In this document: one piece after another, positions 5,538 to 18,672 of the stretch
Layout of the letters: each line of letters opens with the position of its first letter
Position numbering within the stretch: position 1 is the first letter of the stretch
NCBI GenBank assembly: GCA_944386975.1
Contig: CALXDC010000030.1
Span: 1 to 34,859 of the forward strand
Origin: an uncultured Oscillospiraceae bacterium
Lineage (GTDB): Bacteria > Bacillota > Clostridia > Oscillospirales > Oscillospiraceae
Direction: 5' to 3'
Length of the DNA: 34,859 nucleotides
Made by a program: the position numbers and the translations under genes
Notes under the pieces: model-generated
The model's input: only the letters and a program-made list of their open reading frames with translations
Database searches by the model: none
What the model was told of the DNA's origin: nothing

Positions 5538-5837
5538 ATGCGGGACGTTTTGCTCACGCCATTGGGGCTGGCTATATGCTATCTCCTGGTCATCAATCTC
5601 ATCGCCTTCTGCATGATGGGGTGGGACAAGCGGCAGTCCAAGCGGGCGGGCGCCCGGCGGACGCCGGAGAAGCGGCTCTTTCTGGCGGCTTTTCTGGGGG
5701 GCAGCGTGGGGGCCATTGCGGGCATGTTTCACTTTCACCACAAGACCCGCCACTGGTATTTCCGCTACGGCCTGCCCGCCATTCTGATCTTGCAGCTGGC
5801 GGCGGCGGGAGGAATCTGGTACTGGCTTGGGCGCTGA
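5538..5837 (+). CDS. DUF1294 small membrane protein
   Basis: A 99-residue protein of the DUF1294 family, of unknown function. It has a hydrophobic segment at about residues 7-28, the conserved MGWDKRQSKR motif, then RTPEKRLFLAAFLGGSVGA, a family hallmark, the HHKTRHWYFRYG motif and a final membrane segment near the C-terminus. The frame is open further upstream to a GTG at 5424, but AAAGGAGG sits 7 nt before the ATG at 5538 and a good promoter lies at 5482-5510, so the shorter form is right. It is monocistronic and ends just before a hairpin terminator. Confidence 0.85.
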   Translation: MRDVLLTPLGLAICYLLVINLIAFCMMGWDKRQSKRAGARRTPEKRLFLAAFLGGSVGAIAGMFHFHHKTRHWYFRYGLPAILILQLAAAGGIWYWLGR

Positions 5838-5883
5838 TTTTTTTCCAGATATTTCCACCGCTTTACCTCTTATGTTTATCGAT

Positions 5884-5982
5884 GGCTACCCAATGGCTAC
5901 CCACCCGGAGCCCTTGCGCTGCAAGGGGTTCCGGGTTTTTTTCTTTTTCTTTTTTCTCAATTGGCTACCCAAATGGCTACCC
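5884..5982 (+). repeat. Two tandem pairs of GGCTACCC flanking a hairpin
   Basis: The octamer GGCTACCC occurs at 5884-5891, 5895-5902, 5963-5970 and 5975-5982. All copies are in the same orientation, 11 bp apart in the first pair and 12 bp in the second. The pairs bracket a GC-rich hairpin and T-tract. Evenly phased short direct repeats around a palindrome resemble an attachment site with arm-type recombinase sites, but this is inference. Confidence 0.55.
5903..5942 (+). terminator. Terminator after the DUF1294 gene
   Basis: Arms 5903-5917 and 5921-5935 pair with small internal mismatches around the loop GCT, and a run of seven T follows, continuing into a T-rich tract. Confidence 0.75.
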
Positions 5983-6056
5983 TTCGTGATTTTGAAGCGC
6001 CGCAATTCATTGCGCCCCAGGGGATTGCGTAATCTCTCCTCCTAAACCTAAGGGGC

Positions 6057-6062
6057 GATAAT
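6057..6062 (+). promoter_or_regulatory. Putative -10 of the first SLH gene
   Basis: GATAAT lies 104 bp before the ATG within TAAGGGG-C-GATAATAC. The same block (TAAGGGG-A-GATAATAC) stands at the same distance upstream of the second SLH gene, although the surrounding sequence differs. That conservation, more than the hexamer itself, argues for a promoter. No consensus -35 is visible at either gene. Confidence 0.45.
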
Positions 6063-6166
6063 ACGCCTCTTTTGGTGAATTTTTCGAATGCAAAAATCGA
6101 CATTTTTCACAAAATACGGCAAAAAATCGAACTTTATCGCAAATTCAAAAGGAGGAAAATCCAACC

Positions 6167-8791
6167 ATGAGAAACTTGAAAAAGGTTCTCGCGCTGGTGC
6201 TGGCCCTGGTCATGAGCCTGAGCCTTGTCACCATCGCAAACGCGGCTGATTTCACTGACAGCAATGATATCAGCTACGAGGAAGCTGTTGACGTGATGAA
6301 CGCCATCGGCGTCCTGGAGGGCTTCGAGGACGGTTCCTTCCAGCCCAGCGCTACCCTGACCCGTGAGCAGGCTGCCAAGATCATCTGCACCATGCTCCTG
6401 GGCGACAACGCCGAGAAGCTGGCCGGTACGACCAGCGCCTTCTCCGACGTGGCTTCCACCCGCTGGAGCGCTCCCTACATCGCTTACTGCGCTTCTCTGG
6501 GCATCGTTGCCGGTAACGGTGACGGCACCTTCAACCCCACCGGCACCCTGACCGGCTATGCCTTCGCCAAGATGCTGCTGGGCGCTGTGGGCTATGACTC
6601 CACCATCGAGGGCTTCGTGGGCGCCGGCTGGAACCTGAAGGTTGCCTCCATGGCTTCCAAGGCCGGCCTGCTGAACAACCTGCAGAGCTTCGTGGGCTCC
6701 GAGTCCATCACTCGTGAGGCTGCCGCTCAGATGGCTCTGAACACCATCAAGGCCACCCTGGTTGAGTACGACGGCACCACCATCGACGTCTCCACCGGCG
6801 ACGCCAGCGTGTCCATCGGCAACACCAAGTATAGCTATGTCACCTCCAACAACGGCGACATCAACAAGAACATCGATGCTACCACCCAGGGCAACACCGC
6901 TGCCTACTACACCCTGGAGTTCGGCGAGCAGTACTTCCCCAACCTGAAGCTGGTCTCCACCAACACCACTGACGACTTCGGCCGTCCCGCCAACCAGTGG
7001 AGCCTGTCCAACGTGACCATCGGCAAGTATGCCAAGGCCCCCGCTTTCGTTTACACCGCTGAGGCCTCCGGCAACACCACTGCCGAGAAGGTCAAGGCCA
7101 TGGGTCTGAAGGACTTCAAGGTCGCCAGCAGCTATGACGCTGAGACTGAGACCAATACCTACGTGCGTGCCATGATCAACGGCGCTGATGACAGGACCAA
7201 GACGATCAAGACTGTCAGCGACATTCCTCAGTATACCGCCAACGGCACCCAGGTGCTGGTGTATACCTCCGAGCAGACTGCTGATCTGATCATCGCTGTT
7301 GTGGTCATCAAGACCCAGCTGATGCAGATCAACTCCGTGAAGAGCGAGTCTGTCACCCTGAAGCAGGTGGATAAGGAGCAGGATGTGGTTGCCAACGACG
7401 AGCGTCTCTACGCTGGCTTCATGAACGTGGCCGCTGTCGAGGATGACGACGACTGCTATGAGACCCTGGCCGCCATGAAGGCTGACGATTACGTCCTGGT
7501 GACTCCTCTGTGGAACGGCACCAACTACAACGTGGCCGCCGTTGCTGAGCCCACCGTTGTCTCCGGCGCTCTGACCAAGATCAACACCAAGAGCACCGAC
7601 CTGAAGGTGAAGTCCATCGTTGTGGACGGTACCACCTATGCTATGTCCGCTCTGTGGTCCTCCAAGGACGGCGAGCTGAACCGTAAGACCGTTCTGAGCA
7701 GCACCGCTATCACCAACGTGTATGTGGATAGCTTCGGCTACGCCATCTACGCCACCGACGTCATCTCCTCCAACAGCGTGATCATCATTGACGAGATCTA
7801 CAGCTCCCTGGTGAACGGCAAGATCGTCAAGTACGCCCAGGGCTGGGATGCCAACGGCAACGAGGTCAGCCTGAACCTGGGCACCAGCCCCAAGTATCCT
7901 GGTGTGAATAATGATGAGACCAAGGTCCAGGGTATGGTCTTCGAGTATGAGAGCTACACCGCCAACGGCGCTGACTATCAGTTGGTTGCCCAGAAGACTA
8001 CCGCCGATTGGGAGGCTGGCGATCTGGTCTATGTGACCGCCGTCGACACCGGTGTTGCCGCCGGCGCCGGCAAGGCCCAGGTGAAGGGTGCCGATGTGTA
8101 CTTCGACGCCAACGTGAAGTTCATCTTCCTGAGCAAGAACGGTAACGATGTGACCGGTATCACCGTGAACGACGGTGCGAAGGAAGTCACCGCCATTGAG
8201 GAGGAATCTCTGACCTACGTCCTCAACGGCGATGGCACGAAGATCATGGCTGTTGTGATCCCCAACGATAACGACGCCGCCAACACCGCCAACCTGTTGT
8301 ATGTCTCCGCTGTCACCGGCTACGTGATCAACGCCAACGGCGCCCGCGTGCCCGAGTTCACCGCTTACATCAACGGTGAGAAGGTGGAGAACTGCGTGTA
8401 CAACAAGAGTATCACCAACCCCAACGAGCTGGCCAACCAGTTCTACACCTACAGCGAGAGCGACGGTGTGTATGCTCTGAATAAGTACACCAAGACCGAT
8501 AATGCCACTTCCGTTTCCAGCGGCACGATCTACACCATCACCAACGACACCTACTTCAAGATCTACGAGGACAACAATCAGGGTCCCGACTACAACGCCA
8601 AGAACGCTGTGGTGATCGACCTGGTGACCGATGATGGTATCACTTATTACTCCCTGAAGGATATGGCTGACGGCATCAAGGATAAGACCAACCCTGTTCA
8701 GGGCTTCACCGTGTCCTACATCTACAACGGCTCCGACAACGCCGGTGCCAACACCGTCTCCTACATCTTCATCACCGGTAACAAGTATTAA
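6167..8791 (+). CDS. Secreted S-layer-homology (SLH) protein A
   Basis: An 874-residue exported surface protein. Residues 1-27 are a signal peptide (basic start, hydrophobic core, cut after about ANA). SLH repeats follow at about 28-78 and 90-142 (FSDVASTRWSAPYIAYCASL, then GDGTFNPTGTLTG), with a weaker third at about 150-200; SLH domains anchor proteins to secondary wall polymers. The rest (about 205-874) is acidic and rich in Thr, Asn, Val and Asp, and I recognise no domain in it. Codons are heavily restricted (CTG, AAG, AAC, ATC), as in very highly expressed genes, so this may be a main S-layer protein. GGAGG sits 9 nt before the ATG. Residues 1-243 are identical to SLH protein B; beyond that the two differ by many substitutions and indels. 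Confidence 0.92.
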   Translation: MRNLKKVLALVLALVMSLSLVTIANAADFTDSNDISYEEAVDVMNAIGVLEGFEDGSFQPSATLTREQAAKIICTMLLGDNAEKLAGTTSAFSDVASTRWSAPYIAYCASLGIVAGNGDGTFNPTGTLTGYAFAKMLLGAVGYDSTIEGFVGAGWNLKVASMASKAGLLNNLQSFVGSESITREAAAQMALNTIKATLVEYDGTTIDVSTGDASVSIGNTKYSYVTSNNGDINKNIDATTQGNTAAYYTLEFGEQYFPNLKLVSTNTTDDFGRPANQWSLSNVTIGKYAKAPAFVYTAEASGNTTAEKVKAMGLKDFKVASSYDAETETNTYVRAMINGADDRTKTIKTVSDIPQYTANGTQVLVYTSEQTADLIIAVVVIKTQLMQINSVKSESVTLKQVDKEQDVVANDERLYAGFMNVAAVEDDDDCYETLAAMKADDYVLVTPLWNGTNYNVAAVAEPTVVSGALTKINTKSTDLKVKSIVVDGTTYAMSALWSSKDGELNRKTVLSSTAITNVYVDSFGYAIYATDVISSNSVIIIDEIYSSLVNGKIVKYAQGWDANGNEVSLNLGTSPKYPGVNNDETKVQGMVFEYESYTANGADYQLVAQKTTADWEAGDLVYVTAVDTGVAAGAGKAQVKGADVYFDANVKFIFLSKNGNDVTGITVNDGAKEVTAIEEESLTYVLNGDGTKIMAVVIPNDNDAANTANLLYVSAVTGYVINANGARVPEFTAYINGEKVENCVYNKSITNPNELANQFYTYSESDGVYALNKYTKTDNATSVSSGTIYTITNDTYFKIYEDNNQGPDYNAKNAVVIDLVTDDGITYYSLKDMADGIKDKTNPVQGFTVSYIYNGSDNAGANTVSYIFITGNKY

Positions 8792-8823
8792 TCTGAGCTT
8801 ATCTTTGCGATAGGTTTCAAACG

Positions 8824-8859
8824 AAAAGAGATCCCGGGGTTATCCCGGGATCTCTTTTT
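8824..8859. terminator. Bidirectional terminator between SLH A and its partner
   Basis: Fifteen-bp arms AAAAGAGATCCCGGG (8824-8838) and their complement (8844-8858) with a 5-nt loop give T-runs on both strands. A near-identical copy lies at the other end of the cassette. Confidence 0.9.
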
Positions 8860-8875
8860 GCATCATTTCGGAAAT

Positions 8876-9418
8876 CTACTTCATTCCCCAGAAGGTGAAC
8901 TTGGAGCCTGCGGAGATGTAGTAGCGGTCCATGGTGGCCACAAGCTGGAGGGTGGAGATATCCTGATAAGCGGGACCCTTATTGCTGTAGCAGAGCTGAC
9001 TGCCCATGCTGACGGATTGGGCGGGGAGGGCGGCGTTTTTCCCCACAAAGAACCAGCACCACAGATAGCCGGACATAAACATATTGGCAAATCCGTCCCC
9101 CGATCCGGAGGAACTCGACAGGCGGATATAGGAATACTCTGTAGACCCATTGAACCGCAGGTCGCAGTCCCCGTAGCCGTTCAGCTCCGCGTCCATCAGC
9201 ACATACCGGTAGGCCCCCCAGTCGATGCCGCTGATATCCAGCGTCACATTCCCGCTCTGGGCCGATACCGTGACCTCCTTCAATTTGATGAACAGGGATT
9301 TCTCCGCCAGGCCCTGTAGGGCCTGATCCACCTTGCTGCTCAGATCGTTGAAGTCCGCCATCAGCACCCGGTCTGTGGCCACCCACTGAGGCAGCTGATA
9401 ATTTTCCGTATAATTCAA
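8876..9418 (-). CDS. Uncharacterised 180-residue protein, copy A
   Basis: I do not recognise a named family. The frame is open upstream to 9637, but the paralogue at 15079 shows the real start: a TTG at 9418, preceded by AAAAAGGAG with 8 nt spacing. The N-terminus (NYTENYQLPQWVATDRVLM, then ADFND) resembles openings I associate with phage tail or baseplate-linked proteins (LPQW...DRVLM.DFN). The remainder looks like a compact beta-rich domain ending YYISAGSKFTFWGMK. There is no signal peptide or membrane segment. It is convergent with SLH A across a shared terminator, and the pair is duplicated together, which suggests a functional or mobility link. Function unknown. Confidence 0.72.
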   Translation of the reverse strand: MNYTENYQLPQWVATDRVLMADFNDLSSKVDQALQGLAEKSLFIKLKEVTVSAQSGNVTLDISGIDWGAYRYVLMDAELNGYGDCDLRFNGSTEYSYIRLSSSSGSGDGFANMFMSGYLWCWFFVGKNAALPAQSVSMGSQLCYSNKGPAYQDISTLQLVATMDRYYISAGSKFTFWGMK

Positions 9419-9442
9419 CAGAAATTCTCCTTTTTGTTTTGA

Positions 9443-9448
9443 ATTATA
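9443..9448 (-). promoter_or_regulatory. -10 of the 180-residue gene, copy A
   Basis: TATAAT on the minus strand, 24 bp upstream of the TTG start, conserved in the second copy. No clear -35 is visible. Confidence 0.5.
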
Positions 9449-9509
9449 CCGTCTTTGCAGGGCCGCTTGCCTATCTCTTTCGGGAAGAAGATTTTTCGGA
9501 GCCTGACAA

Positions 9510-9543
9510 AAAGCCGGTACACCTGTCATGGTGTACCGGCTTT
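9510..9543 (-). terminator. Hairpin with 14-bp arms upstream of copy A
   Basis: AAAGCCGGTACACC and its complement flank a 6-nt loop. On the minus strand it is followed by TTTTTGTC, as in an intrinsic terminator pointing toward the 180-residue gene. It may insulate that gene. The same hairpin with the same loop is present in the other arm. Confidence 0.65.
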
Positions 9544-9545
9544 CT

Positions 9546-9565
9546 GTTGCACATCGTTGTGCAAC
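9546..9565. repeat. TTGCAC-N6-GTGCAA palindrome, copy 1
   Basis: GTTGCACATCGTTGTGCAAC marks the inner end of the left arm. Two more sites of the same form occur at 14911 and 18673. Each lies just beyond a strong hairpin. Confidence 0.7.
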
Positions 9566-9599
9566 CAAAATTCTTCCCTTAAGAATTCTTAACGAAATC

Positions 9600-9629
9600 T
9601 TTACATCCGTCTGATTTTTCCTGTATAAT
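9600..9629 (+). promoter_or_regulatory. Promoter of the sodium:solute symporter
   Basis: TTTACA (9600-9605), 18 bp, TATAAT (9624-9629), 63 bp before the ATG at 9693. A TTAAGAATTCTTAA palindrome lies shortly upstream (about 9580-9593) and could be an operator. Confidence 0.65.
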
Positions 9630-9692
9630 AGTGCCATCCCCCGCCATACCTGTCACAGGAACTATTCCGAACTGGAAAGAAGGGAGAATCGT

Positions 9693-11147
9693 ATGAAATT
9701 TAATCTAACCGTCACCGCCATTGTGGTGGTCTACCTGCTGATCATGCTCTTTATCGGCTGGTACTCCTCCACAAAAATCAGCTCCAACACCGATTTCATG
9801 GTGGCCGGCCGCCGCCTGGGGCCCTTCCTCATGGCCGGCACTCTGGCCGCCACGGAGATTGGCGGCGGCAGCTCTCTGGGCGTGGTGCAAAACGGCATGT
9901 CCGGCTACGGCATCAGCGCCGCCTGGTACATCATTACCATGGGCCTCGCCTTCGTGGTCCTCACCTTCCTGGCACCCAAGTTCCGGGCCGCCACAGTGAA
10001 AACCGTTCCGGAGTATTTCCGCCGCCGCTATGGAAAGAGCGCCGGTCTCGTCACCGCCATCATTATGCTGCTGCCTCTGGTGGGACTCACCGCCGGACAG
10101 TTCATCGCCTCCGCCGTCATTCTCTCCACCATGCTGGGCATCAACTATCAAGCCGCTGTGATTGTGGTGGCGATGGTGGTTACCATCTACTCGATTATGG
10201 GCGGCCTGTGGAGCGTCACGCTGACGGACTTTGTGCAGGTGTTTCTCATCATCATCGGTATGATCATCGCCATTCCCTTCGCCATTCAGCTGGCCGGAGG
10301 CTGGGAGGCGGTCACCTCCAACGTACCCGCCGAGACCTTCGACCTCTTCTCCGGCTATAGTCTCAGCGGCATTCTCTCCTTGACGGTTATGTATATCGCC
10401 ACCTTCACCGTGGGGCAGGAGGCGGTCTCTCGGTACTACGCCGCCAGGGACGGCAAGGCTGCCCGCCAGGGCTCTGTGCTGGCCGCTCTTCTGAACTTCA
10501 TCTATGCCTTCGTCCCCGCCGTGCTGGGCGTCATTGTGCTGGCTCTCATCAACATGGGCCGCTTCAGCGCCGCCGACTTTGAGAGCGTGGGCGCCCGTTA
10601 TGCTCTGCCGGTGCTGGCCATGGAGGCCATGCCTGCGGTGATCTGCGGCCTGCTTTTCGCCGGTATTATTTCCGCCACCATGTCCTCCTCCGACTCCGAC
10701 CTGCTGGGGGCCGGTTCCATTTTCGCCAACGATATTTACCATGCCATCCTGAAGCCGGACGCTACCAGCGCCCAGGTCATGCGGATGACCAAGCTGGTGA
10801 TGGGTCTGGTGGGCGTCGCCTCCATGTTTATTGCCCTGTTCAACACCTCCAGCATTGTCAATCTGCTGATGTTCTGCTTCACTCTCCGGGCGGCCGGAGC
10901 CTTCTTCCCCTACGTGCTGGGACACTACTGGAAGGGCTCCTCCCTGGCGGGTACCATTGCCTCCCTGATTTCCGGGTCTATTGTGGTGGTGTATCTGGAG
11001 AAAATTTCCGGCGGGGTGCTGTTCGGCATGAAGCTGAGCCAGCCGATTATTCCGGGTCTGGTGGTTGGGCTGGTGTTTTTCCTGTTGTTCTCGCTGCTCT
11101 TCCCGCCCAAGGAGAAGACCACTGAGCTTTCCCCTGAAGAGGAATAA
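9693..11147 (+). CDS. Sodium:solute symporter (SSS family)
   Basis: A 484-residue, very hydrophobic protein with about 13 membrane segments, the usual size and topology of the SSS family, which couples sodium entry to uptake of sugars, amino acids or organic acids. The family-typical first helix is followed by FMVAGRRLGPFLMAGTLAA and then TEIGGGSSLG. The SATMSSSDSDLLGAGSIFANDIY region matches the conserved helix-8 neighbourhood. GGGAG precedes the ATG. It is monocistronic with its own promoter and terminator. The substrate cannot be assigned. It is the first gene of the 5.3-kb core between the inverted arms, so its orientation relative to outside genes would flip if the cassette inverts. Confidence 0.9.
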   Translation: MKFNLTVTAIVVVYLLIMLFIGWYSSTKISSNTDFMVAGRRLGPFLMAGTLAATEIGGGSSLGVVQNGMSGYGISAAWYIITMGLAFVVLTFLAPKFRAATVKTVPEYFRRRYGKSAGLVTAIIMLLPLVGLTAGQFIASAVILSTMLGINYQAAVIVVAMVVTIYSIMGGLWSVTLTDFVQVFLIIIGMIIAIPFAIQLAGGWEAVTSNVPAETFDLFSGYSLSGILSLTVMYIATFTVGQEAVSRYYAARDGKAARQGSVLAALLNFIYAFVPAVLGVIVLALINMGRFSAADFESVGARYALPVLAMEAMPAVICGLLFAGIISATMSSSDSDLLGAGSIFANDIYHAILKPDATSAQVMRMTKLVMGLVGVASMFIALFNTSSIVNLLMFCFTLRAAGAFFPYVLGHYWKGSSLAGTIASLISGSIVVVYLEKISGGVLFGMKLSQPIIPGLVVGLVFFLLFSLLFPPKEKTTELSPEEE

Positions 11148-11171
11148 GTTTTCCTCTCTTCCCTCTCTTTT

Positions 11172-11207
11172 GGAGCGGCCGGCATGGACCGGCCGCTCCC
11201 TTTTTTT
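11172..11207 (+). terminator. Terminator of the symporter gene
   Basis: GGAGCGGCCGG (11172-11182) pairs with 11189-11199 across a 6-nt loop, followed by seven T. Confidence 0.9.
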
Positions 11208-11321
11208 CTTCCGACGGTATACCTTTTGCGTCAGGAGGAAATATAAGGAAGTCTTTATGCTTATGCGGTAAAATTTTTTATAGCGGTTTTTATTCAACTA
11301 TCGCATGATTATTTTGAGAAA

Positions 11322-11350
11322 TTGCAAAATTGTGAATAATTCGCTACTCT
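11322..11350 (+). promoter_or_regulatory. Possible promoter of the recombinase gene
   Basis: TTGCAA (11322-11327), 17 bp, TACTCT (11345-11350) in a markedly AT-rich stretch (about 11270-11360) that contrasts with the GC-rich surroundings. The AT-rich block also holds a loose inverted repeat (about 11308-11342) and could equally contain recombinase binding sites. Confidence 0.35.
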
Positions 11351-11397
11351 TATCTTAATCTCCCTGCAACATTCGGATAAGAAAGGAAGAAACTACC

Positions 11398-12552
11398 ATG
11401 TCAAGGAAAACTGTTGCACCCAATATCTCCTATGACGACAAGAAAAAGCGCTATTATGTGACCGTCAGCTGCGGCATCGACCAGGCTGGAAACCGCATGC
11501 GCCAATCCCGGTGCTTTCCCACCTTGGAACAGGCTCTCATCATGCGTGATTCCTTTCTTCGTGAAAAAAGCATGCAGGGCCAGATTCTCCCTGCCGGTAC
11601 GACTCTGGGCAGTTGGCTGCACTACTGGCTGGAGTATGTGGTCCGGCCTCATCGGGCTGTTACCACAACCTACGGCTACGAAAAAATGATTGAAAATCAT
11701 ATCCGTCCTGCCCTGGGCAACATCCTTCTCTGCGAATTTTCCGCCGTACAACTGCAGCAGTACCTGTCCCGGAAGCTGGCGGACGGGCTCAGCAACAATA
11801 CGGTGCGTAAGCACTACACCCTCATCAGTTCCGCCCTGCATCTGGCGGTGAAGCAGGAAATGCTCTCCCGCAACGTGGCTCAGGCAGTAACACCGCCCCC
11901 CAAGATCTCTCCCCACCACAGCTTTTATACCGCTGAGCAGCTCCAGACCCTTTTTACCCTGGCGGAGGGCAGCGCCCTGGAGCCGGTGGTAAAGCTGGCG
12001 GGATACCTGGGGATGCGCCGCAGCGAAATCTGTGGCCTCAAGTGGGACAATGTGGATTTTCAGCAGGACGTTCTCTATATCTGTGAGGCGCGCACCGCCG
12101 CCAACGGTGTGGCGGTGGACAAGGGACCCAAGAGCGTATCCTCCGTTCGGCGGCTGTCCTTTGCCGGCAATGAGGATCTGCGGGAGCTGCTGCGGCGGAT
12201 GGACAGCACCAACCGCTCCCGGCGAGAGCGGTTGGGAGAGGACTACAATCCCCACGGCTTCGTGGTGACCCACGGCCGGGGACAGCCCTATGCACCCGAC
12301 TATCTCTCCGGCCACTTCACCAAGTTTGTCCGTCAGTGCCAGCTGCCGCCCTGTACCCTTCACGGCCTGCGCCACAGCTTTGCAAGCATTGCCAATCAGC
12401 AGAAGGTGCCCATGTTCAGCATCTGTAAGGCCCTGGGACACAGCAACACCGTCATCACCAGCCAGATCTATATGCATCTTTTTGACGACACCCATCAGGA
12501 TGTGGTGGATCTGGTGGGCCAGGCCATCCGTTCCGCTCCGCCGGACTGTTGA
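11398..12552 (+). CDS. Tyrosine recombinase / phage-type integrase
   Basis: A complete 384-residue tyrosine site-specific recombinase. An N-terminal arm-binding-like region (residues 1-60, SYDDKKKRYYVTVSCGID) precedes a SAM-like core-binding domain (about 65-160) and the catalytic domain (about 175-375). The full catalytic set is visible: R207 (GMRRSEICGL), H322 and R325 (LHGLRHSFA), H348 (LGHSN) and the nucleophile Y358 (QIYMH). GGAAG lies before the ATG. There is no excisionase, repressor, relaxase or phage structural operon beside it, and its flanking genes are ordinary metabolic genes. It therefore looks solitary rather than part of an intact phage or ICE. It sits near the middle of the segment bounded by the inverted SLH arms, so a role as a DNA invertase is possible but unproven. 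Confidence 0.92.
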   Translation: MSRKTVAPNISYDDKKKRYYVTVSCGIDQAGNRMRQSRCFPTLEQALIMRDSFLREKSMQGQILPAGTTLGSWLHYWLEYVVRPHRAVTTTYGYEKMIENHIRPALGNILLCEFSAVQLQQYLSRKLADGLSNNTVRKHYTLISSALHLAVKQEMLSRNVAQAVTPPPKISPHHSFYTAEQLQTLFTLAEGSALEPVVKLAGYLGMRRSEICGLKWDNVDFQQDVLYICEARTAANGVAVDKGPKSVSSVRRLSFAGNEDLRELLRRMDSTNRSRRERLGEDYNPHGFVVTHGRGQPYAPDYLSGHFTKFVRQCQLPPCTLHGLRHSFASIANQQKVPMFSICKALGHSNTVITSQIYMHLFDDTHQDVVDLVGQAIRSAPPDC

Positions 12553-12570
12553 CTTTCTGCTTTGTCGCGG

Positions 12571-12599
12571 TTTACAATGTCGCGGCATCGTGGTACAAT
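12571..12599 (+). promoter_or_regulatory. Promoter of the birA-chromate transporter unit
   Basis: TTTACA (12571-12576), 17 bp, extended -10 TGGTACAAT with TACAAT at 12594-12599. A second overlapping option is TTGACT (12549-12554), 18 bp, TACAAT (12573-12578). Both lie between the recombinase stop and the BirA start. Confidence 0.65.
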
Positions 12600-12628
12600 G
12601 CCAAAGGAAGTCGGGAGGAGGAGTGAAT

Positions 12629-13630
12629 ATGAGCAAGGATCAGGTATACACGCTGCTGCGCCAAAGCGGGGGACAGCACCTGTCCGGCGAGGAGATCAGC
12701 CGACGTCTGGGCATCTCCCGGGCGGCGGTGTGGAAGGCGGTGGACGCTCTTCGGAAAGCGGGATATACCATTGACGCTCGCAGCGGCCTGGGCTACGCCC
12801 TGGTGGAGACGCCGGACGCACTGACGGAGCGGGAGGTGCGGCGGTGCATGGAGGAGCGGGAAATCCCCTGTACCCGCCTCTATTGCTTTGATAAGGTGGA
12901 CTCCACCAACTCCTTCCTGAAACGGGCGGCCCTGGAGGGCGCTCCCCACAACGCGGTGGCAGTGGCCAACTGCCAGACCGGCGGCCGGGGACGGATGTCC
13001 CGCACCTTTCAATCCCCTCCGGACCGAGGGGTATACCTGTCTATTCTGCTGCGTCCGGCTCTGCCTCCGGCGGAACTGATGCCGGTGACGGCTATGACAG
13101 CGGTGGCCATGTGTGACGCCGTGGAGGCCGCCTGCGGCCTCCGACCGGGAATCAAGTGGACCAACGATCTGGTGGTGGGGAAACGGAAGCTGGGCGGTAT
13201 TTTGACGGAAATGGCCCTGGAGGGAGAGACCGGGCTGGTACAGTACCTTATCAGCGGCACCGGCATCAACGTGCTCCACACCCGGGAGGACTTTTCCCCG
13301 GAGGTGGCGGCCATGGCCACGTCCCTGCTCCAGGAGCTGGGGCGGCCTGTGTCCCGCCCTCTGCTGGCCGCGGAGATGATCCGGGCCTTCCAACGGCTGG
13401 GGGAGGACATTGGGGGCGACCACAGCCGGTATCTGGCGGCCTACCGTCGGGACTGCGTCACCCTGGGCAAGCAGGTGCAGCTTCTCTGGCAGGAGGACCG
13501 CCGGGAGGTGGTGGAGGCCCTGGATGTGGACGATCAGTTTGGTCTGGTGGTCCGGCATGCCGATGGCCGCACCGAGGTGATCCGCTCCGGCGAGGTGTCG
13601 GTACGGGGCATGTACGGATATATCGAGTAG
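12629..13630 (+). CDS. birA: BirA bifunctional biotin-protein ligase / repressor
   Basis: A 333-residue biotin-[acetyl-CoA-carboxylase] ligase with an N-terminal winged-helix domain (about residues 5-60, EEISRRLGISRAAVWKAVDA), so it can both biotinylate carrier proteins and repress biotin genes. The catalytic domain shows the ATP/biotin loop GGRGRMSRTFQSP, the KWTNDLVV motif with the catalytic lysine region, and GTGINV; a C-terminal SH3-like domain follows. The start is set by GGGAGGAGG 7 nt before ATG 12629; the frame is open much further upstream without support. It is the first gene of a likely operon with two chromate-type transporter halves 21 bp downstream. No BirA operator is evident here. 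Confidence 0.93.
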   Translation: MSKDQVYTLLRQSGGQHLSGEEISRRLGISRAAVWKAVDALRKAGYTIDARSGLGYALVETPDALTEREVRRCMEEREIPCTRLYCFDKVDSTNSFLKRAALEGAPHNAVAVANCQTGGRGRMSRTFQSPPDRGVYLSILLRPALPPAELMPVTAMTAVAMCDAVEAACGLRPGIKWTNDLVVGKRKLGGILTEMALEGETGLVQYLISGTGINVLHTREDFSPEVAAMATSLLQELGRPVSRPLLAAEMIRAFQRLGEDIGGDHSRYLAAYRRDCVTLGKQVQLLWQEDRREVVEALDVDDQFGLVVRHADGRTEVIRSGEVSVRGMYGYIE

Positions 13631-13651
13631 AAAAAGGAGAGAAAATCGAAC

Positions 13652-14215
13652 ATGATGAAATTGTTGCTGCAGCTGTTCATCACCTTTGCCAAGGTGGGGG
13701 TGATGACCTTCGGAGGCGGCTACGCCATGCTGCCCATTCTCCAGCGGGAGGTGGTGGAAAACCGGGGCTGGTGCTCGGAGGAGGACCTGACGGACTACTT
13801 CGCCATCGGTCAGTGTACGCCCGGTATCATCGCTGTGAACACGGCCACCTTTGTGGGCCAGAAGCAGGCGGGGACGGTAGGCGGCATCGTGGCCACCTTG
13901 GGCATCGTCTTCCCCTCCCTGGTGATCATCACCGCTCTGGCCAGTATCATTGAAAAGATCAGCCATCTGGCAGTGGTGCAAAACGCCTTCGCCGGGATTA
14001 ACGTGTGCGTAGGCATTCTGATCCTCAACTCTGTGGTGAAGCTGTTCAAAAAGGCGGTGGTGGGGAAGGGCACCCTGGTGATTTTCCTAGTGGTAACGAT
14101 TGGGGCGCTTACCGCCAACACCCTGCCCAATGTGAACCTGTCGCCGGTGGTGTTCGTGCTGATATCCGCTCTGGCGGGGATTTTGCTGAAGAACTGGGGG
14201 GCGAAGAAGGCATGA
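13652..14215 (+). CDS. Chromate transporter family protein, half 1
   Basis: A 187-residue membrane protein made of a single CHR domain. Signatures are FAKVGVMTFGGGYAMLPIL near the N-terminus and the FAIGQCTPGIIAVNTATFVG motif, with about six membrane segments. Long ChrA proteins hold two such domains in one chain; short ones occur as tandem pairs with opposite topology, as here. The next gene overlaps its stop codon by ATGA, so the two halves are made in equal amounts and presumably form a heterodimer. The family exports chromate by known examples, but many gut homologues probably move another oxyanion. AAAAAGGAG precedes the ATG. Confidence 0.88.
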   Translation: MMKLLLQLFITFAKVGVMTFGGGYAMLPILQREVVENRGWCSEEDLTDYFAIGQCTPGIIAVNTATFVGQKQAGTVGGIVATLGIVFPSLVIITALASIIEKISHLAVVQNAFAGINVCVGILILNSVVKLFKKAVVGKGTLVIFLVVTIGALTANTLPNVNLSPVVFVLISALAGILLKNWGAKKA

Positions 14216-14805
14216 TTTACTTACAACTGTTCTACGAATTTTTTAAAACCGGACTCTTTGCCATCGGCGGCGGCCTGGCCACTCTGCCCTTCCTCTACAA
14301 CCTCTCGGACAAGACGGGGTGGTTCAGCCACACGGATCTCACCAACATGATCGCCGTCAGCGAGTCTACCCCAGGCCCCATCGGCATCAACACAGCCACC
14401 TATGTGGGCTTTACGGTAAAGGGACTGCCGGGGGCCATTGTGGCCACCCTTGGGCTGGTAGCGCCGTCCATCATTATCATCCTGATCATCGCCTATTTTC
14501 TGAAGGCCTTCCGGGACAGCCGCCTGGTAGACGCCGCCTTCTACGGCCTGCGGCCCGCCTCCACAGGGCTGATCGCCGCAGCGGGTATTCCGGTACTGAT
14601 CACCTCTCTGCTGACGGTGGACAGCCTCTATGCCCTCCTCAGCGGCGGCATGACGGCGGGGATGATCAAGTGGCCTGCAGTGGCGCTGGCGGTGGTGATT
14701 TATGTGCTCACCAACTTTGTAAAGAAGACCAAGGGGCTCCACCCCATTTTGTTCATTGCCTTCGCGGCGGTGGTGGGAATTGTGTTCCGCCTGGGAGGCG
14801 TGTGA
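14212..14805 (+). CDS. Chromate transporter family protein, half 2
   Basis: A 197-residue single-CHR-domain protein, partner of the gene before it. It has the matching signatures FFKTGLFAIGGGLATLPFL and IAVSESTPGPIGINTATYVG and about six membrane segments. The start is the ATG inside the upstream stop (ATGA); the longer open frame back to 14005 only overlaps the first half-transporter and is not used. The gene ends shortly before a strong terminator and is the last gene of the core segment. Confidence 0.87.
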   Translation: MIYLQLFYEFFKTGLFAIGGGLATLPFLYNLSDKTGWFSHTDLTNMIAVSESTPGPIGINTATYVGFTVKGLPGAIVATLGLVAPSIIIILIIAYFLKAFRDSRLVDAAFYGLRPASTGLIAAAGIPVLITSLLTVDSLYALLSGGMTAGMIKWPAVALAVVIYVLTNFVKKTKGLHPILFIAFAAVVGIVFRLGGV

Positions 14806-14856
14806 TCGCATGGGGAGCGGAAATTCTTCTCGCTCCGGTTTCCCTATTTCTTTTGC

Positions 14857-14891
14857 GGCGGCCTCCGATGTCCGGAGGCCGCCCGTTTTTT
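14857..14891 (+). terminator. Terminator of the birA-chromate transporter unit
   Basis: GGCGGCCTCCG (14857-14867) pairs with 14873-14883 across a 5-nt loop, followed by CGTTTTTT. Confidence 0.88.
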
Positions 14892-14910
14892 AACGGGATT
14901 CTGAAAAAAG

Positions 14911-14930
14911 GTTGCACAGCGGCGTGCAAC
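14911..14930. repeat. TTGCAC-N6-GTGCAA palindrome, copy 2
   Basis: GTTGCACAGCGGCGTGCAAC marks the inner end of the right arm. Its six central bases differ from those of copies 1 and 3. Confidence 0.7.
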
Positions 14931-14932
14931 GG

Positions 14933-14969
14933 AAAGCCGGTACACCATGACAGGTGTACCGGCTTTTTG
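14933..14969 (+). terminator. 14-bp-arm hairpin upstream of copy B
   Basis: AAAGCCGGTACACC (14933-14946), loop ATGACA, complement 14953-14966, then TTT. It is the exact counterpart of the hairpin at 9510-9543. It backs up the terminator at 14857 and shields the 180-residue gene from readthrough. Confidence 0.7.
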
Positions 14970-15048
14970 TCAGGCCCGCTGAGGAGAGAGGCCTTTCCTC
15001 TTTGGGGAAAGGTGGCGCGAAACGCCGGATGAGGGGAGACGAAGCTGG

Positions 15049-15054
15049 TATAAT
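15049..15054 (+). promoter_or_regulatory. Extended -10 promoter of the 180-residue gene, copy B
   Basis: TGGTATAAT, an extended -10 element (TATAAT at 15049-15054), stands 24 bp before the TTG start; the upstream -35 region has no match to consensus. Confidence 0.55.
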
Positions 15055-15078
15055 TTAAAACAAAAAGGAGAATTTCTG

Positions 15079-15621
15079 TTGAATTATACGGAAAATTATC
15101 AGCTGCCCCAGTGGGTGGCTTCGGACCGGGTCTTGATGGCAGACTTCAACGACGCCATGTCCAAGACCGATCAGGCCCTTCTGGGTCTGGAGGAAAAATC
15201 TCTGTTCACCAAATTGAAGGAGGTCACGGTACCTGCTCAGAGCGAAGATGTGACATTGGATATCAGCGGTATTGACTGGGGGGCCTACCGGTATGTGCTG
15301 TTGGACGCGGCGCTGAACGGCTACGGCGACTGCGAGCTGCGGCTGAACGGTTCCACCCAGTATTCCTATGTCCGCCTGTCGGATTCCTCCGGGTCCGGAA
15401 GCGGCTTTGCTCTCATGTTCATGCCCGGCCATCTGTGGTGCCGGTTTTTCGTTGGGAAAGACGCCTCCCTTCCCGCCCAATCCGTCAGTATGGGGAAATA
15501 TCTCTGCTATAGCAATGAAGGTCCTGCCTATCAGGACATCGCCACCCTGCAGCTTGTGGTATCCTATGACAGATACTATATTTCTGCAGGCTCCAAGCTT
15601 ACCTTCTGGGGAATGAAGTAG
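15079..15621 (+). CDS. Uncharacterised 180-residue protein, copy B
   Basis: Paralogue of the gene at 8876-9418, of exactly the same length, with no indel and substitutions spread along the chain. Both keep the TTG start, the AAAAAGGAG site 8 nt before it and the C-terminal FWGMK. Conserved blocks include TLDISGIDWGAYRYVL, LNGYGDC and ALPAQSVSMG-type segments (LPAQSVSMG here). Conservation with mostly conservative changes suggests both copies are under selection. The LPQW-then-DFN opening suggests an evolutionary tie to phage tail-associated proteins; the rest matches nothing I recognise. Convergent with SLH B. Confidence 0.72.
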   Translation: MNYTENYQLPQWVASDRVLMADFNDAMSKTDQALLGLEEKSLFTKLKEVTVPAQSEDVTLDISGIDWGAYRYVLLDAALNGYGDCELRLNGSTQYSYVRLSDSSGSGSGFALMFMPGHLWCRFFVGKDASLPAQSVSMGKYLCYSNEGPAYQDIATLQLVVSYDRYYISAGSKLTFWGMK

Positions 15622-15636
15622 GTTTCCGAAAATATA

Positions 15637-15674
15637 TAAAAAGAGATCCCGGGATAAACCCGGGATCTCTTTTC
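15637..15674. terminator. Bidirectional terminator between copy B and SLH B
   Basis: Arms 15639-15653 and 15659-15673 (AAAAGAGATCCCGGG and complement) with a 5-nt loop; counterpart of 8824-8859. Confidence 0.9.
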
Positions 15675-15705
15675 GTTTGAAACCTATCGCAAAGACAAGC
15701 TCAAA

Positions 15706-18270
15706 TTAATACTTGTTTCCAGTGATGAAGATGTAGGAAACAGTCTTGGCGCCGGCGTTGTCGGAACCGTTGTAGATGTAGGACACCTCGAAGCCCTTCA
15801 CCTCGTTGTTCTTGATGCCGTCAGCCATCTCCTTCAGGGAGTTGTAGGAGATACCGTCGTCGGTGTACAGGTCGATCACCACAGCGTTCTTGCCGTTCAG
15901 GTCACTGTTGTGGCCGTTGCTGACATAGTCGCTGAAGTAGGTGTCGTTGGTGATGGTGTAGATCGCACCGGAGGCCACGGAGGTGGCGTTGTCGATCTTG
16001 GTGTACTCATTCAGAGCGTACACGCCTTCGTTCTCACTGTAGGTGTAGAACTTGTTGGCCAGCTCGTTGGGGCTGCCGATGCTCTTGTTGTACACGCAAT
16101 CCTCGACCTTCTCGCCGTTGATGTAAGCAGTGAACACGGGCACGCGGGTACCGCTGGCGTTGTTCACATAGCCGGTCACGGCGGAGACGTACAGCAGGTT
16201 GGCGGTGTTGGCGGCGTCGTTATCGTTGGGGATCACAACGGCCACGATCTTATCGCCATCCTTGTTGAGGACGTAAACCAGGTCATACTTGGTGGTGGTG
16301 GAGCCAACCGCCTTCACACCGTCGTTGACAGTGATGCCGGTCACGTCGACGTTGTCATTGCCTCTGCTCAGGAAGATGAACTTCACATCGGAGTCGAAGT
16401 ACTTGGTCTGGCCGCCCACGGTAGCGCTGGCAGCACCGGCGACGATGTACTGGTTCTCCTCGGTGTAGACCATATCGCCCGCGGCGAAGGTGTCGGCCTG
16501 GGCAACCAGCTTGTAATCAGCGCCGTTGGACACGTTCTTGCTGGTGTACTCGAAGGTCTTGCCCTGGATGGTGCTCTCATTGTAGCCCAGGTAGTTGGGG
16601 TTGGTACCCAGGTTCAGGCTGACCTCGTTGCCGTTGACATCCCAGCCCTGAGCGTACTTGACGATCTTGCCGTTCACCAGGGAGCTGTAGATCTCGTCAA
16701 TGATAACCACGCTGTTGGAGGAGGTAACGTCGGTGGCGTAGATGGCGTAGCCGAAGCTATCCAGGTACACGTTGGTGATGGCGGTGCTGCTCAGAACGGT
16801 GTCGCGGTTCAGCTCGCCGTCCTTGGAGGTCCACATAGCGGACATGCTATAGGTGGTGCCGTCCACAACGATGGACTTCACATTCCGGTCGCTGCTCTTG
16901 GTGTTGATCTTGGTCAGAGCGCCGGAGACAACGGTGGGCTCAGCAATGGCAGCCACGCTGTAGTTGGTGCCGTTGTACAGAGGAGTGACCAGGACATAGT
17001 CGTCGGCCTTCATGGCGGACAGAGCCTCGTAGCAGTCGTTGTCGTCCTCGACAGCAGCCATGTTCATGAAGGTGATGGAAGCCTTATCCTGAACATCGTC
17101 CACGGTCTTCAGGGTGACGGAATCACTCTTCACGGAGTTGATCTGCATCAGCTGGGTCTTGATGACCACAACGGCGATGATCAGATCGGCAGTCTTCTCA
17201 GAGGTGTACACCAGGACCTGGGTGCCGTTACCGGTGTACTGAGGAATGTCATTGACTTTGTCAATGGCGGCGCCGGGCTTGCCGTTCACGGAAACATTCA
17301 CGTTGTCGGCAACATCAAAGTCCTTCAGGCCCATAGCCTTGACCTTGTCGGCGGTGGTGTCGCCGGAGGCAGCAGCGGTGTAGGAGAAGGCGGGAGTCTT
17401 GGCATACTTGCCGATGGTCACGTTGGACAGGCTCCAGCTGTTGGCGGGACGGCCGAAATCATCGGTGGTAGTGTCGGTGGTGGTCAGCTTCAGCTTGGGG
17501 AAGTACTGCTCACCGAACTCCAGGGTGTAGTAGGCAGCGCTGTTGCCCTGGGTGGTAGCATCGATGTTCTTGTTGATGTCGCCGTTGTTGGAGGTGACAT
17601 AGCTATACTTGGTGTTGCCGATGGACACGCTGGCGTCGCCGGTGGAGACGTCGATGGTGGTGCCGTCGTACTCAACCAGGGTGGCCTTGATGGTGTTCAG
17701 AGCCATCTGAGCGGCAGCCTCACGAGTGATGGACTCGGAGCCCACGAAGCTCTGCAGGTTGTTCAGCAGGCCGGCCTTGGAAGCCATGGAGGCAACCTTC
17801 AGGTTCCAGCCGGCGCCCACGAAGCCCTCGATGGTGGAGTCATAGCCCACAGCGCCCAGCAGCATCTTGGCGAAGGCATAGCCGGTCAGGGTGCCGGTGG
17901 GGTTGAAGGTGCCGTCACCGTTACCGGCAACGATGCCCAGAGAAGCGCAGTAAGCGATGTAGGGAGCGCTCCAGCGGGTGGAAGCCACGTCGGAGAAGGC
18001 GCTGGTCGTACCGGCCAGCTTCTCGGCGTTGTCGCCCAGGAGCATGGTGCAGATGATCTTGGCAGCCTGCTCACGGGTCAGGGTAGCGCTGGGCTGGAAG
18101 GAACCGTCCTCGAAGCCCTCCAGGACGCCGATGGCGTTCATCACGTCAACAGCTTCCTCGTAGCTGATATCATTGCTGTCAGTGAAATCAGCCGCGTTTG
18201 CGATGGTGACAAGGCTCAGGCTCATGACCAGGGCCAGCACCAGCGCGAGAACCTTTTTCAAGTTTCTCAT
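15706..18270 (-). CDS. Secreted S-layer-homology (SLH) protein B
   Basis: An 854-residue paralogue of SLH protein A, in inverted orientation. Signal peptide, SLH region and linker (residues 1-243) are identical to A; the first difference is residue 244 (Ser here, Thr in A). After that the two proteins stay alignable to the end (both finish YIFITGNKY), with clusters of substitutions and short indels, for example around residues 325-350, 560-610 and 780-800. The frame opens at 18366, but ATG 18270 is preceded by the same GGAGG and leader as A and starts the signal peptide, so it is the real start. Codon use is equally restricted. A and B could be alternately expressed surface proteins. Confidence 0.92.
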   Translation of the reverse strand: MRNLKKVLALVLALVMSLSLVTIANAADFTDSNDISYEEAVDVMNAIGVLEGFEDGSFQPSATLTREQAAKIICTMLLGDNAEKLAGTTSAFSDVASTRWSAPYIAYCASLGIVAGNGDGTFNPTGTLTGYAFAKMLLGAVGYDSTIEGFVGAGWNLKVASMASKAGLLNNLQSFVGSESITREAAAQMALNTIKATLVEYDGTTIDVSTGDASVSIGNTKYSYVTSNNGDINKNIDATTQGNSAAYYTLEFGEQYFPKLKLTTTDTTTDDFGRPANSWSLSNVTIGKYAKTPAFSYTAAASGDTTADKVKAMGLKDFDVADNVNVSVNGKPGAAIDKVNDIPQYTGNGTQVLVYTSEKTADLIIAVVVIKTQLMQINSVKSDSVTLKTVDDVQDKASITFMNMAAVEDDNDCYEALSAMKADDYVLVTPLYNGTNYSVAAIAEPTVVSGALTKINTKSSDRNVKSIVVDGTTYSMSAMWTSKDGELNRDTVLSSTAITNVYLDSFGYAIYATDVTSSNSVVIIDEIYSSLVNGKIVKYAQGWDVNGNEVSLNLGTNPNYLGYNESTIQGKTFEYTSKNVSNGADYKLVAQADTFAAGDMVYTEENQYIVAGAASATVGGQTKYFDSDVKFIFLSRGNDNVDVTGITVNDGVKAVGSTTTKYDLVYVLNKDGDKIVAVVIPNDNDAANTANLLYVSAVTGYVNNASGTRVPVFTAYINGEKVEDCVYNKSIGSPNELANKFYTYSENEGVYALNEYTKIDNATSVASGAIYTITNDTYFSDYVSNGHNSDLNGKNAVVIDLYTDDGISYNSLKEMADGIKNNEVKGFEVSYIYNGSDNAGAKTVSYIFITGNKY

Positions 18271-18375
18271 GGTTGGATTTTCCTCCTTTTGAATTCTGCG
18301 ATAAAGTTCGATTTTTTCCACAAAAGAAGCGAAACAATAGCGATTTGCGCACAAAAAGTTCGCCATCAGCGGAGT

Positions 18376-18381
18376 ATTATC
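18376..18381 (-). promoter_or_regulatory. Putative -10 of SLH gene B
   Basis: GATAAT on the minus strand within TAAGGGG-A-GATAATAC, 105 bp before the ATG, matching the block at 6057 upstream of SLH A. The flanking sequence is unrelated to that of A, so the two genes have separate regulatory regions. Confidence 0.45.
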
Positions 18382-18672
18382 TCCCCTTATCTTTTTGTCG
18401 GAACGTCCGCACTTCGGAGGGATACTTCACCGGAGCACATACCGTGGCATGCCGGTCCCGTATCTGTCCCGGGGGTATCTCTCCCCCGCACTTGGTTCCG
18501 CATGCTTAATATACACGCACGTCAAAAGAATTGCAAGAGGTTTTCCGCCTTTGTAACATACTTGTAACAAAGGGCTCAGAGCTTTCCAGAAGGGCCAGAA
18601 CCTGGGGAAACAGGGGTGTTTGGGGGAGTTTCAGAACATATTGCACTATTACCGATTGGAAGCGGGCCGTCT

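Follow-up and report, generated by a model that had tools for sequence, protein, structure and literature searches.

The 34,859-nucleotide stretch of DNA analysed here (the window) is the entire contig C30 (CALXDC010000030.1) of an uncultured Oscillospiraceae bacterium, whose draft genome (GCA_944386975.1) comprises 96 contigs and 2.66 Mb. We conclude, with a probability of roughly three in four, that it carries a switch of S-layer genes by site-specific inversion, run by a resident tyrosine recombinase, Int. The 22-bp sites on which the switch would turn and the two types of flank that adjoin them are established at the level of sequence. So are the shift in linkage that falls at the site, the contrary orientations seen among species and a recombinase gene that looks intact.

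In the proposed mechanism, Int, encoded within the segment, would recombine two oppositely oriented core sites about 100 bp 5' of the SLH starts, and the crossover would flip the ~12.3 kb between them. The flank on one side (F, marked by FeoB) would stay put with the sole evident promoter and a conserved leader, and the SLH gene adjoining it would be expressed; the gene adjoining the other flank (H, marked by HtrA), which has a hairpin and candidate arm sites and no evident promoter, would be silent. Flipping would swap the two SLH proteins; several relatives have a number of H sites opposite a single F site, and there the rotation could extend to more than two proteins. Three points are inferred: the action of Int on these sites, inversion in the present day, and an active F against a silent H. 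The parts of the proposed switch are:

6050-6071 (+): proposed recombination core site A, AAGGGGCG-ATAATA-CGCCTCTT, spacer 6058-6063
18367-18388 (-): proposed recombination core site B, AAGGGGAG-ATAATA-CTCCGCTG, spacer 18375-18380, arms palindromic at 6 of 8 positions
6058-18380 (no strand): proposed invertible segment of about 12.3 kb, spacer to spacer, deduced from the two oppositely oriented sites
6167-8791 (+): SLH gene A, 874 amino acids, on the HtrA-side (H) flank, predicted to be silent in the present orientation
15706-18270 (-): SLH gene B, 854 amino acids, on the FeoB-side (F) flank, predicted to be expressed in the present orientation
11398-12552 (+): tyrosine recombinase Int, 384 amino acids, inside the proposed invertible segment (PF00589, E 6.9e-20; PF14659, E 5.8e-9)

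Core sites and their spacers

Alignment of the regions upstream of SLH genes in relatives revealed a near-palindromic site of 22 bp, AAGGGGvG-ATAATA-C..C.CTT, about 100 bp 5' of each SLH ATG. The whole assembly has just two exact copies, sites A and B, which lie in opposite orientation, and one further match at one mismatch in an unrelated location. In the window these two are the sole matches at up to two mismatches, where 0.21 were expected and 1 of 100 shuffles had as many, and a reversed control pattern yielded zero or one match per strand per genome. At up to one mismatch the site is found in 10 of the 11 genomes of the genus (G000 to G010); the eleventh, G010, has a degenerate copy before an SLH gene. 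Upstream of the SLH genes of G127, G239, G088 and G060, which belong to other genera, no shared core palindrome was found.

The comparisons below use 38 sites from the 11 genomes, 8 with an F and 30 with an H flank. A search at up to one mismatch gave 39 matches, of which 33 were kept and 6, which lacked flank context and an SLH start, were dropped (genome and contig: G000:C21, G003:C6, G003:C8, G002:C261, G003:C2 and G004:C112). Five sites that stand before SLH genes were added, four with two mismatches each (the F site of G008, G003:C19, G009:C32 and G003:C38) and one degenerate (G010:C7). Two matches at two mismatches (G002:C262:7261 and G007:C176:1649) were excluded, as was G081, from another genus.

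Tyrosine recombinases need equal spacers. The six-base spacer is identical at the F site and all H sites in six of the eight genomes that have both (G000 to G004 and G006), reading GTAATA in G003 and ATAATA in the other five. All four H sites of G009 have GTAATA, and G081 has ATAATG at both F and H.

Two types of flank

What lies outside the sites falls into two types, whose features in the window are:

18508-18536 (-): F promoter TTGCAA-17-TATATT, the proposed expression site
18389-18507 (-): F leader with conserved CAGATACGGGACCGGCnnGCCACGGTATGTG
18550-18571 (-): operator-like palindrome TTTGTTACAAGTATGTTACAAA before the F promoter
5903-5936 (+): hairpin resembling a terminator, behind the HtrA-side genes and immediately 5' of H
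5963-5981 (+): two GGCTACC direct repeats with a 12-bp period, candidate arm-type sites for the recombinase, corresponding to the CTACC pair of H flanks

The F flank occurs once per genome in eight genomes (G000 to G006 and G008) and was not found in G007, G009 and G010. Its promoter scores 9 of 12, against a shuffle mean of 0.5 such sites; this score is weak alone, and the evidence is therefore conservation: CTTGnA and TATAnT are kept, by eye, in all eight F flanks of the genus, as are both TGTTACAA copies of the operator-like palindrome. Most other genera have, by eye, TTGAC-type hexamers in their F promoters.

The H flank has 30 copies in the genus, including that on the HtrA side of the window. 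Hairpins of this kind number two in the stretch against a shuffle mean of 1.1, by itself an insignificant excess. Across the genus, a hairpin stem exact over 6 bp is present in 23 of 30 H flanks and one of eight F flanks. Of the 30 H flanks, 28 have the CTACC pair, at distances of 84-86 and 72-74 bp upstream of the site; none of the eight F flanks has it. Repeats at a fixed distance from a core are candidate arm-type sites, as for lambda Int, and may be bound by the enzyme. A scan of positions 5600-6200 found no promoter-like site directed at gene A, and inspection of the H flanks of the genus by eye revealed no evident promoter. Three H flanks that were examined adjoin ordinary genes, for FMN reductase, CO dehydrogenase/acetyl-CoA synthase and glutamate synthase. 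Judged by sequence, the proposed expression site, with its promoter, lies outside the segment, and the other SLH gene has no evident promoter.

Across the family, the F leader is present in 19 of 400 genomes, once in each except G297, which has two. AAGGGG lies between leader and start in 17 of the 19 (by eye), and 14 of these 17 also have Int at E<=1e-60. The two others, G026 and G297, have the leader and neither AAGGGG nor Int at that threshold, like a plain, unswitched S-layer gene.

The leader RNA itself (18389-18507, minus strand; loci L208-L227) may be structured, with CAGATACGGGACCGGCnnGCCACGGTATGTG flanked by CCGG pairs. The predicted pairs are mostly invariant, and covariation support is therefore thin. 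In Rfam the leader had no match at the gathering score, nor any up to E=1 for 18280-18620.

Linkage changes at the site, and both orientations occur among relatives

The sequence to the left of the core site (flank side) and to its right (gene side) was compared over 25 bp. Across genomes, identity on the left is 0.65 within a flank type and 0.36 between types, a difference that none of 500 label shuffles equalled. The right 25 bp have no tie to flank type (136 of 500 shuffles) and follow the genome (0 of 500). Within one genome, F and H sites agree at 0.31 to the left of the site and at 0.66 to its right. Label shuffles ignore relatedness, and these figures are therefore guides; a set of 34 sites, without G005:C1, G009:C32, G003:C38 and G010:C7, gave the same mosaic picture.

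One pair of genomes illustrates the change directly. The SLH gene proximal to Int and BirA (a gene of the core described below) follows F in G002 and H in G006; the two genes are 63% identical over 1095 residues and share CTCCCCTTGGAATTGAACTTTTT to the right of the spacer (the same first 23 gene-side bases), while the F site of G006 precedes a leader different from that of its own Int-proximal gene.

Orientation can be read from which core gene lies next to the SLH gene at each flank. The Int- or BirA-proximal SLH gene stands at F in G002, G008 and G005 (in G005 via a 90-bp contig overlap), and at H in the window genome, G003, G006 and G081. The SLH gene proximal to chrB, at the other end of the core, stands at F in the window genome and G001. 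In G007, a sister species, contigs C129 and C109 overlap exactly by 77 bp, which puts this gene at H, beside HtrA. Orientations differ between species, and the core has therefore lain both ways within the genus. The symporter, Int, BirA and chromate transporters of G007 are 86-96% identical to those of the window. The SLH bodies have evolved faster than this core: over ~430 residues, the gene of G007 shares 46% identity with A or B.

Contigs often break at these loci. They end within 300 bp on the gene side at 19 of the 38 genus sites and at 8 of 20 leaders (the leaders counted by hand). Assemblers stop at path forks, which repeated SLH starts and mixed orientations both cause. The 77-bp fork of G007 connects two flanks to the alpha leader, and the assembly has one closely similar SLH start. 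Forks in G007, G005, G006 and G009 are suggestive of switching, and collapsed repeats would look alike.

The recombinase and its spread

Tyrosine recombinases share the catalytic pattern R...K...HxxR...H...Y, which is present in Int by eye. The chains matched by Int carry the names phage integrase, Int protein and XerA, and Int also matches phrog_1 integrase (E 2.9e-62). Homologues 67-86% identical occur in 6 of the 10 other genomes of the genus, and the gene thus lies beside the locus in 7 of 11; in each it adjoins gene X, a second gene of the arms, or the symporter that follows X (window and G007).

G008 has no Int match. Its H site is followed by a fossil gene, in which a stop comes, by eye, after 24 codons:

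L069 of G008, 8735-8905: fossil cassette with an H-side site, leader and SLH signal-peptide start, then a stop

G008 seems to be a switch that lost its enzyme and then decayed. Elsewhere, at G005:C1:39732-40444 (L250), an H-type site with ATAATG precedes an SLH gene of 438 residues, perhaps a cassette falling out of use.

Relatives of Int at E<=1e-60 are found in 68 of the 400 family genomes (72 matches). G005, G081 and G127 likewise have SLH genes in inverted arms close to Int. The pair in G127 (L158, 1578-9400) is compact, in the order SLH> X< X'> SLH<, with arms 91.6% identical; its recombinase lies outside the pair, divergent from one SLH start, and GGCTACC-like repeats are present with an undefined core.

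We also considered whether the core is a prophage or integrative element and rejected this: it has no phage or transfer genes, and holds a symporter, BirA and chromate transporters. A search of the window for a tRNA that might mark an attachment site found none, and the viral contigs searched contain no close relative of Int. The enzyme itself may be of phage origin, given its matches to phage integrase families.

The identical block in the arms

The first-pass annotation of this DNA had described two facing SLH genes in 3.4-kb inverted arms around a 5.3-kb core. Alignment bore this out: the arms span 6142-9566 and 14910-18295, with 5343 bases between, and each holds an SLH gene, convergent with the other, plus a copy of a duplicated gene X. 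The annotation had also seen by eye an identical stretch, which proved exact:

6142-6896 (+): 755-bp block of arm A, an exact match to 17541-18295, holding the ribosome-binding site, signal peptide and SLH domains
17541-18295 (-): 755-bp block of arm B, an exact match to 6142-6896

The first mismatch falls at 6897/17540 and a one-base indel at 6141/18296, past which arm identity continues to 6121/18317. Identity between the arms is 87.9% over aligned bases and drops to 84.3% outside the block. Because 755 consecutive matches at 84.3% identity have a probability of ~10^-56, chance can be ruled out as the origin of the block, and the sharp switch in identity is, as had been proposed, best read as recent exchange between the arms.

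The switch does not need the 755-bp identity; the identical stretch stops short of both 22-bp sites, and between site and block the leaders of genes A and B are unlike each other. Gene conversion or homologous exchange would create the block as a by-product, and would hold the N-terminal anchor uniform while the SLH bodies, 76% identical as protein, diverge. The idea that the region between the arms inverts thus survives in altered form. An inversion that alters which SLH protein is joined to which upstream region is supported, with orientation differing between species and an evident promoter at one flank type only, but the crossover does not appear to lie in the block: across the 38 sites the change from flank to gene falls at the 22-bp site. 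Alignment of SLH loci of relatives, which the annotation had recommended, did reveal a mosaic, with the change of linkage at the core site. Nor is it supported that C-termini are swapped onto the other gene's signal peptide, as had been suggested. The start codons are ATG at 6167 (gene A) and 18270 (gene B), the SLH domains are N-terminal (6251-6553 in A, 17884-18186 in B), and so, by eye, is the signal peptide, all within the block; because the signal peptide is inside the identical block, a swap would alter the protein behind the promoter and not the signal peptide. On the strength of the SLH domains and this signal peptide we regard A and B as S-layer-type proteins, with a putative role in the main S-layer.

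Weighing the evidence

Several observations weigh against the proposed switch. The spacer rule has exceptions: one of the four H sites of G005 (on C1, preceding the shorter SLH frame of 438 residues) has ATAATG where the others have ATAATA, and the F spacer of G008 is ATCATA where H has ATAATA. Moreover, 33 of the 38 sites were found via a pattern that includes the spacer, at up to one mismatch, and uniform spacers are therefore favoured by the search. The palindrome is imperfect, with 3-8 of 8 arm positions paired across sites. No Int orthologue was found in G001, G004, G008 or G010, and G001 and G004 (genomes 93% and 83% complete) keep intact sites all the same. The two genomes with broken spacers, G008 and G010 (whose spacer is degenerate), are among those without an Int orthologue, and are therefore counted for an Int-driven switch.

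Across the family, of 40 regions fetched from the 72 Int matches, 13 have an SLH open reading frame, such frames being common in these genomes anyway, and 10 have gene X. We therefore rejected the notion that every member of the Int family is tied to SLH genes; the enzyme family is wider than this use. The F leader is absent at up to two mismatches from 54 of the 68 genomes with Int, and other genera keep only AAGGGG after the leader and not the whole site (in the genera of G241 and G079 the remainder of the site is different). As to the mosaic, left flanks too follow the genome (0 of 500 shuffles), since the likeness among H flanks of one genome is 0.91; the mosaic lies largely between species and could be old. 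The evidence on orientation comes from draft assemblies of different species, not from one population, and the 755-bp exact repeat is longer than typical short-read inserts; the orientation in this draft could therefore be the assembler's choice.

These points lend themselves to other readings, of which two concern recombination. Homologous recombination in the 755-bp block could flip the segment with the recombinase a bystander. The block is long and identical, and SLH 5' parts are also alike within G001 and within G005, but crossovers there would keep the gene-side leader with its flank, whereas the right-hand sequence follows the genome, the G002/G006 pair changes flank at the site, and the two leaders of the window differ; we consider this reading unlikely. 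We hold as just as improbable a static inverted duplication whose copies gene conversion has kept similar, in which the differences in orientation are rare, old rearrangements and nothing switches at present. It would account for the single orientation assembled, and the 76% protein identity of the SLH bodies indicates that the pair is not new. It does not sit easily with G007, a sister of opposite orientation in which the symporter, BirA and chromate transporters retain 92-96% identity, with a single spacer at unrelated flanks in six of eight genomes, or with decayed sites in the two genomes, G008 and G010, that also lack the recombinase. The one alpha-type SLH match in G007 that is reached from two flanks likewise speaks for movement, and a collapsed repeat could also give it.

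The remaining two readings would do away with the site or with the pair itself. A similar string occurs in eight viral contigs of other context, in seven of them before a terminator-like T-run, and TTTT follows 6 of the 38 copies, window site A included, as expected if the palindrome were a transcription attenuator or terminator hairpin. We find this very unlikely, since the other 32 copies have no TTTT close by, and a terminator predicts neither uniform loops within genomes nor a change of linkage exactly there. That a chimeric contig created the inverted pair is an idea to which we give almost no weight: the draft is fragmented and contigs often end at these sites, but inverted SLH arms recur within single contigs in G005, G081 and G127, and the FeoB and HtrA neighbours are kept in relatives. 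Site-specific inversion by Int remains the reading that we prefer.

A broader form of it, for which we would offer slightly less than even odds, is widespread antigenic variation across the Oscillospiraceae. A resident Int would shuffle several silent SLH cassettes, scattered among ordinary genes, with a single expression site, which a conserved leader RNA would mark, via one short core site. The draft of G001 has six H sites. Within this broader scheme we suggest, just as tentatively, that switching could also rearrange large parts of the chromosome and that the window species has the simplest, two-cassette form. A 34.5-kb contig of G001 (C39; L073/L074) carries a larger multi-site array: four core sites, nested (-,-,+,+), whose HtrA and FeoB flanks lie close together.

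Other genes of the locus

The first-pass annotation had not named the genes of the core, which are the tyrosine recombinase, the symporter, BirA and two chromate-transporter genes. Besides Int, the arms and core hold:

8876-9637 (-): gene X, of no assigned family, convergent with SLH gene A, with homologues beside SLH genes in relatives
15079-15621 (+), a stretch also given as 14911-15621: gene X', a duplicate of X
9693-11147 (+): sodium:solute symporter, a passenger, among the compared loci present only in the window and G007
12629-13630 (+): BirA biotin ligase/repressor, a passenger
13652-14805 (+): chromate-transporter genes chrA and chrB, passengers

Gene X adjoins many, not all, SLH genes of the genus, and none was seen beside the second gene of G005. 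It had no match in Pfam or PHROG; its motif NYQLPQW..DRVLMADFN we take to be reminiscent of phage tail proteins. In G006 (C53; L076, 6459-7139), BirA and an HtrA-side gene (orf4549) stand tail to tail with no SLH gene between, a possible deletion or misassembly.

The outer neighbours are an HtrA-like protease gene on the left and, on the right, a PLP-decarboxylase-like gene (weak match), a SCIFF maturase and FeoB. The SCIFF thioether-peptide maturase lies near the F flank at 20068-21444 on the minus strand (TIGR03974, E 6.5e-230).

Comparison with known switches and implications

The closest precedent is in Lactobacillus acidophilus, where, in the parts of the reports consulted, inversion swaps the expressed and silent S-layer genes slpA and slpB (PMC6015585, PMC6176008) on a segment of 6 kb (PMC6015585); Boot et al. 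(1996) is the source cited for this system. The two systems are alike in having two inverted S-layer-type genes on one segment, one at an expression site with a promoter and one silent without. They differ in that the segment here is about 12.3 kb and encodes passengers and a tyrosine recombinase of its own, in that the core is distinct and arm-like repeats accompany it, and in that several relatives of the window species have more than one silent site. The slp site is said to be Hin-like.

The first-pass annotation had set the locus against Campylobacter fetus, for which a title cited in PMC4902306 records S-layer switching by inversion, there with a moving promoter. That contrast holds in part, in that the promoter here lies fixed outside the segment, on the F flank, and not on moving DNA, but the nearer Lactobacillus precedent went unnamed; as in the sap system, one promoter would serve several S-layer genes. 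The C. fetus genes are alike at their 5' ends, and their switching is RecA-dependent.

In Clostridioides difficile, a 195-bp element at cwpV is switched by the tyrosine recombinase RecV, whose gene is not near cwpV, and Salmonella hin lies within the DNA that it inverts, according to the sections seen of PMC2784873. With cwpV the present locus shares a tyrosine recombinase, inverted repeats and a putatively phase-variable cell-wall protein in a Gram-positive gut bacterium; at cwpV one gene is turned on or off, whereas the present switch would exchange entire genes and has its recombinase encoded inside the segment. With hin it shares a recombinase gene that rides inside the invertible segment. 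Hin, however, is a serine recombinase and moves a promoter, and the enzyme here is a tyrosine recombinase.

A literature search, whose coverage left most subscription journals outside, returned no title describing this switch, and the main text of an inverton survey (PMC11892184) has no word beginning S-layer, SLH or Oscillo. S-layer inversion switches are known; this recombinase and its sites look new.

S-layer proteins form the outermost surface met by phages, the host and neighbouring bacteria. The switch may explain why draft genomes of this group break so frequently at these loci. If our reading is true, it would provide a recombinase that can be tested on a defined site of 22 bp with a 6-bp spacer, and an on/off state that could be read from metagenomes as which leader follows the F flank. 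A dedicated switch of this kind would explain surface variation in the mostly uncultured Oscillospiraceae of the gut.

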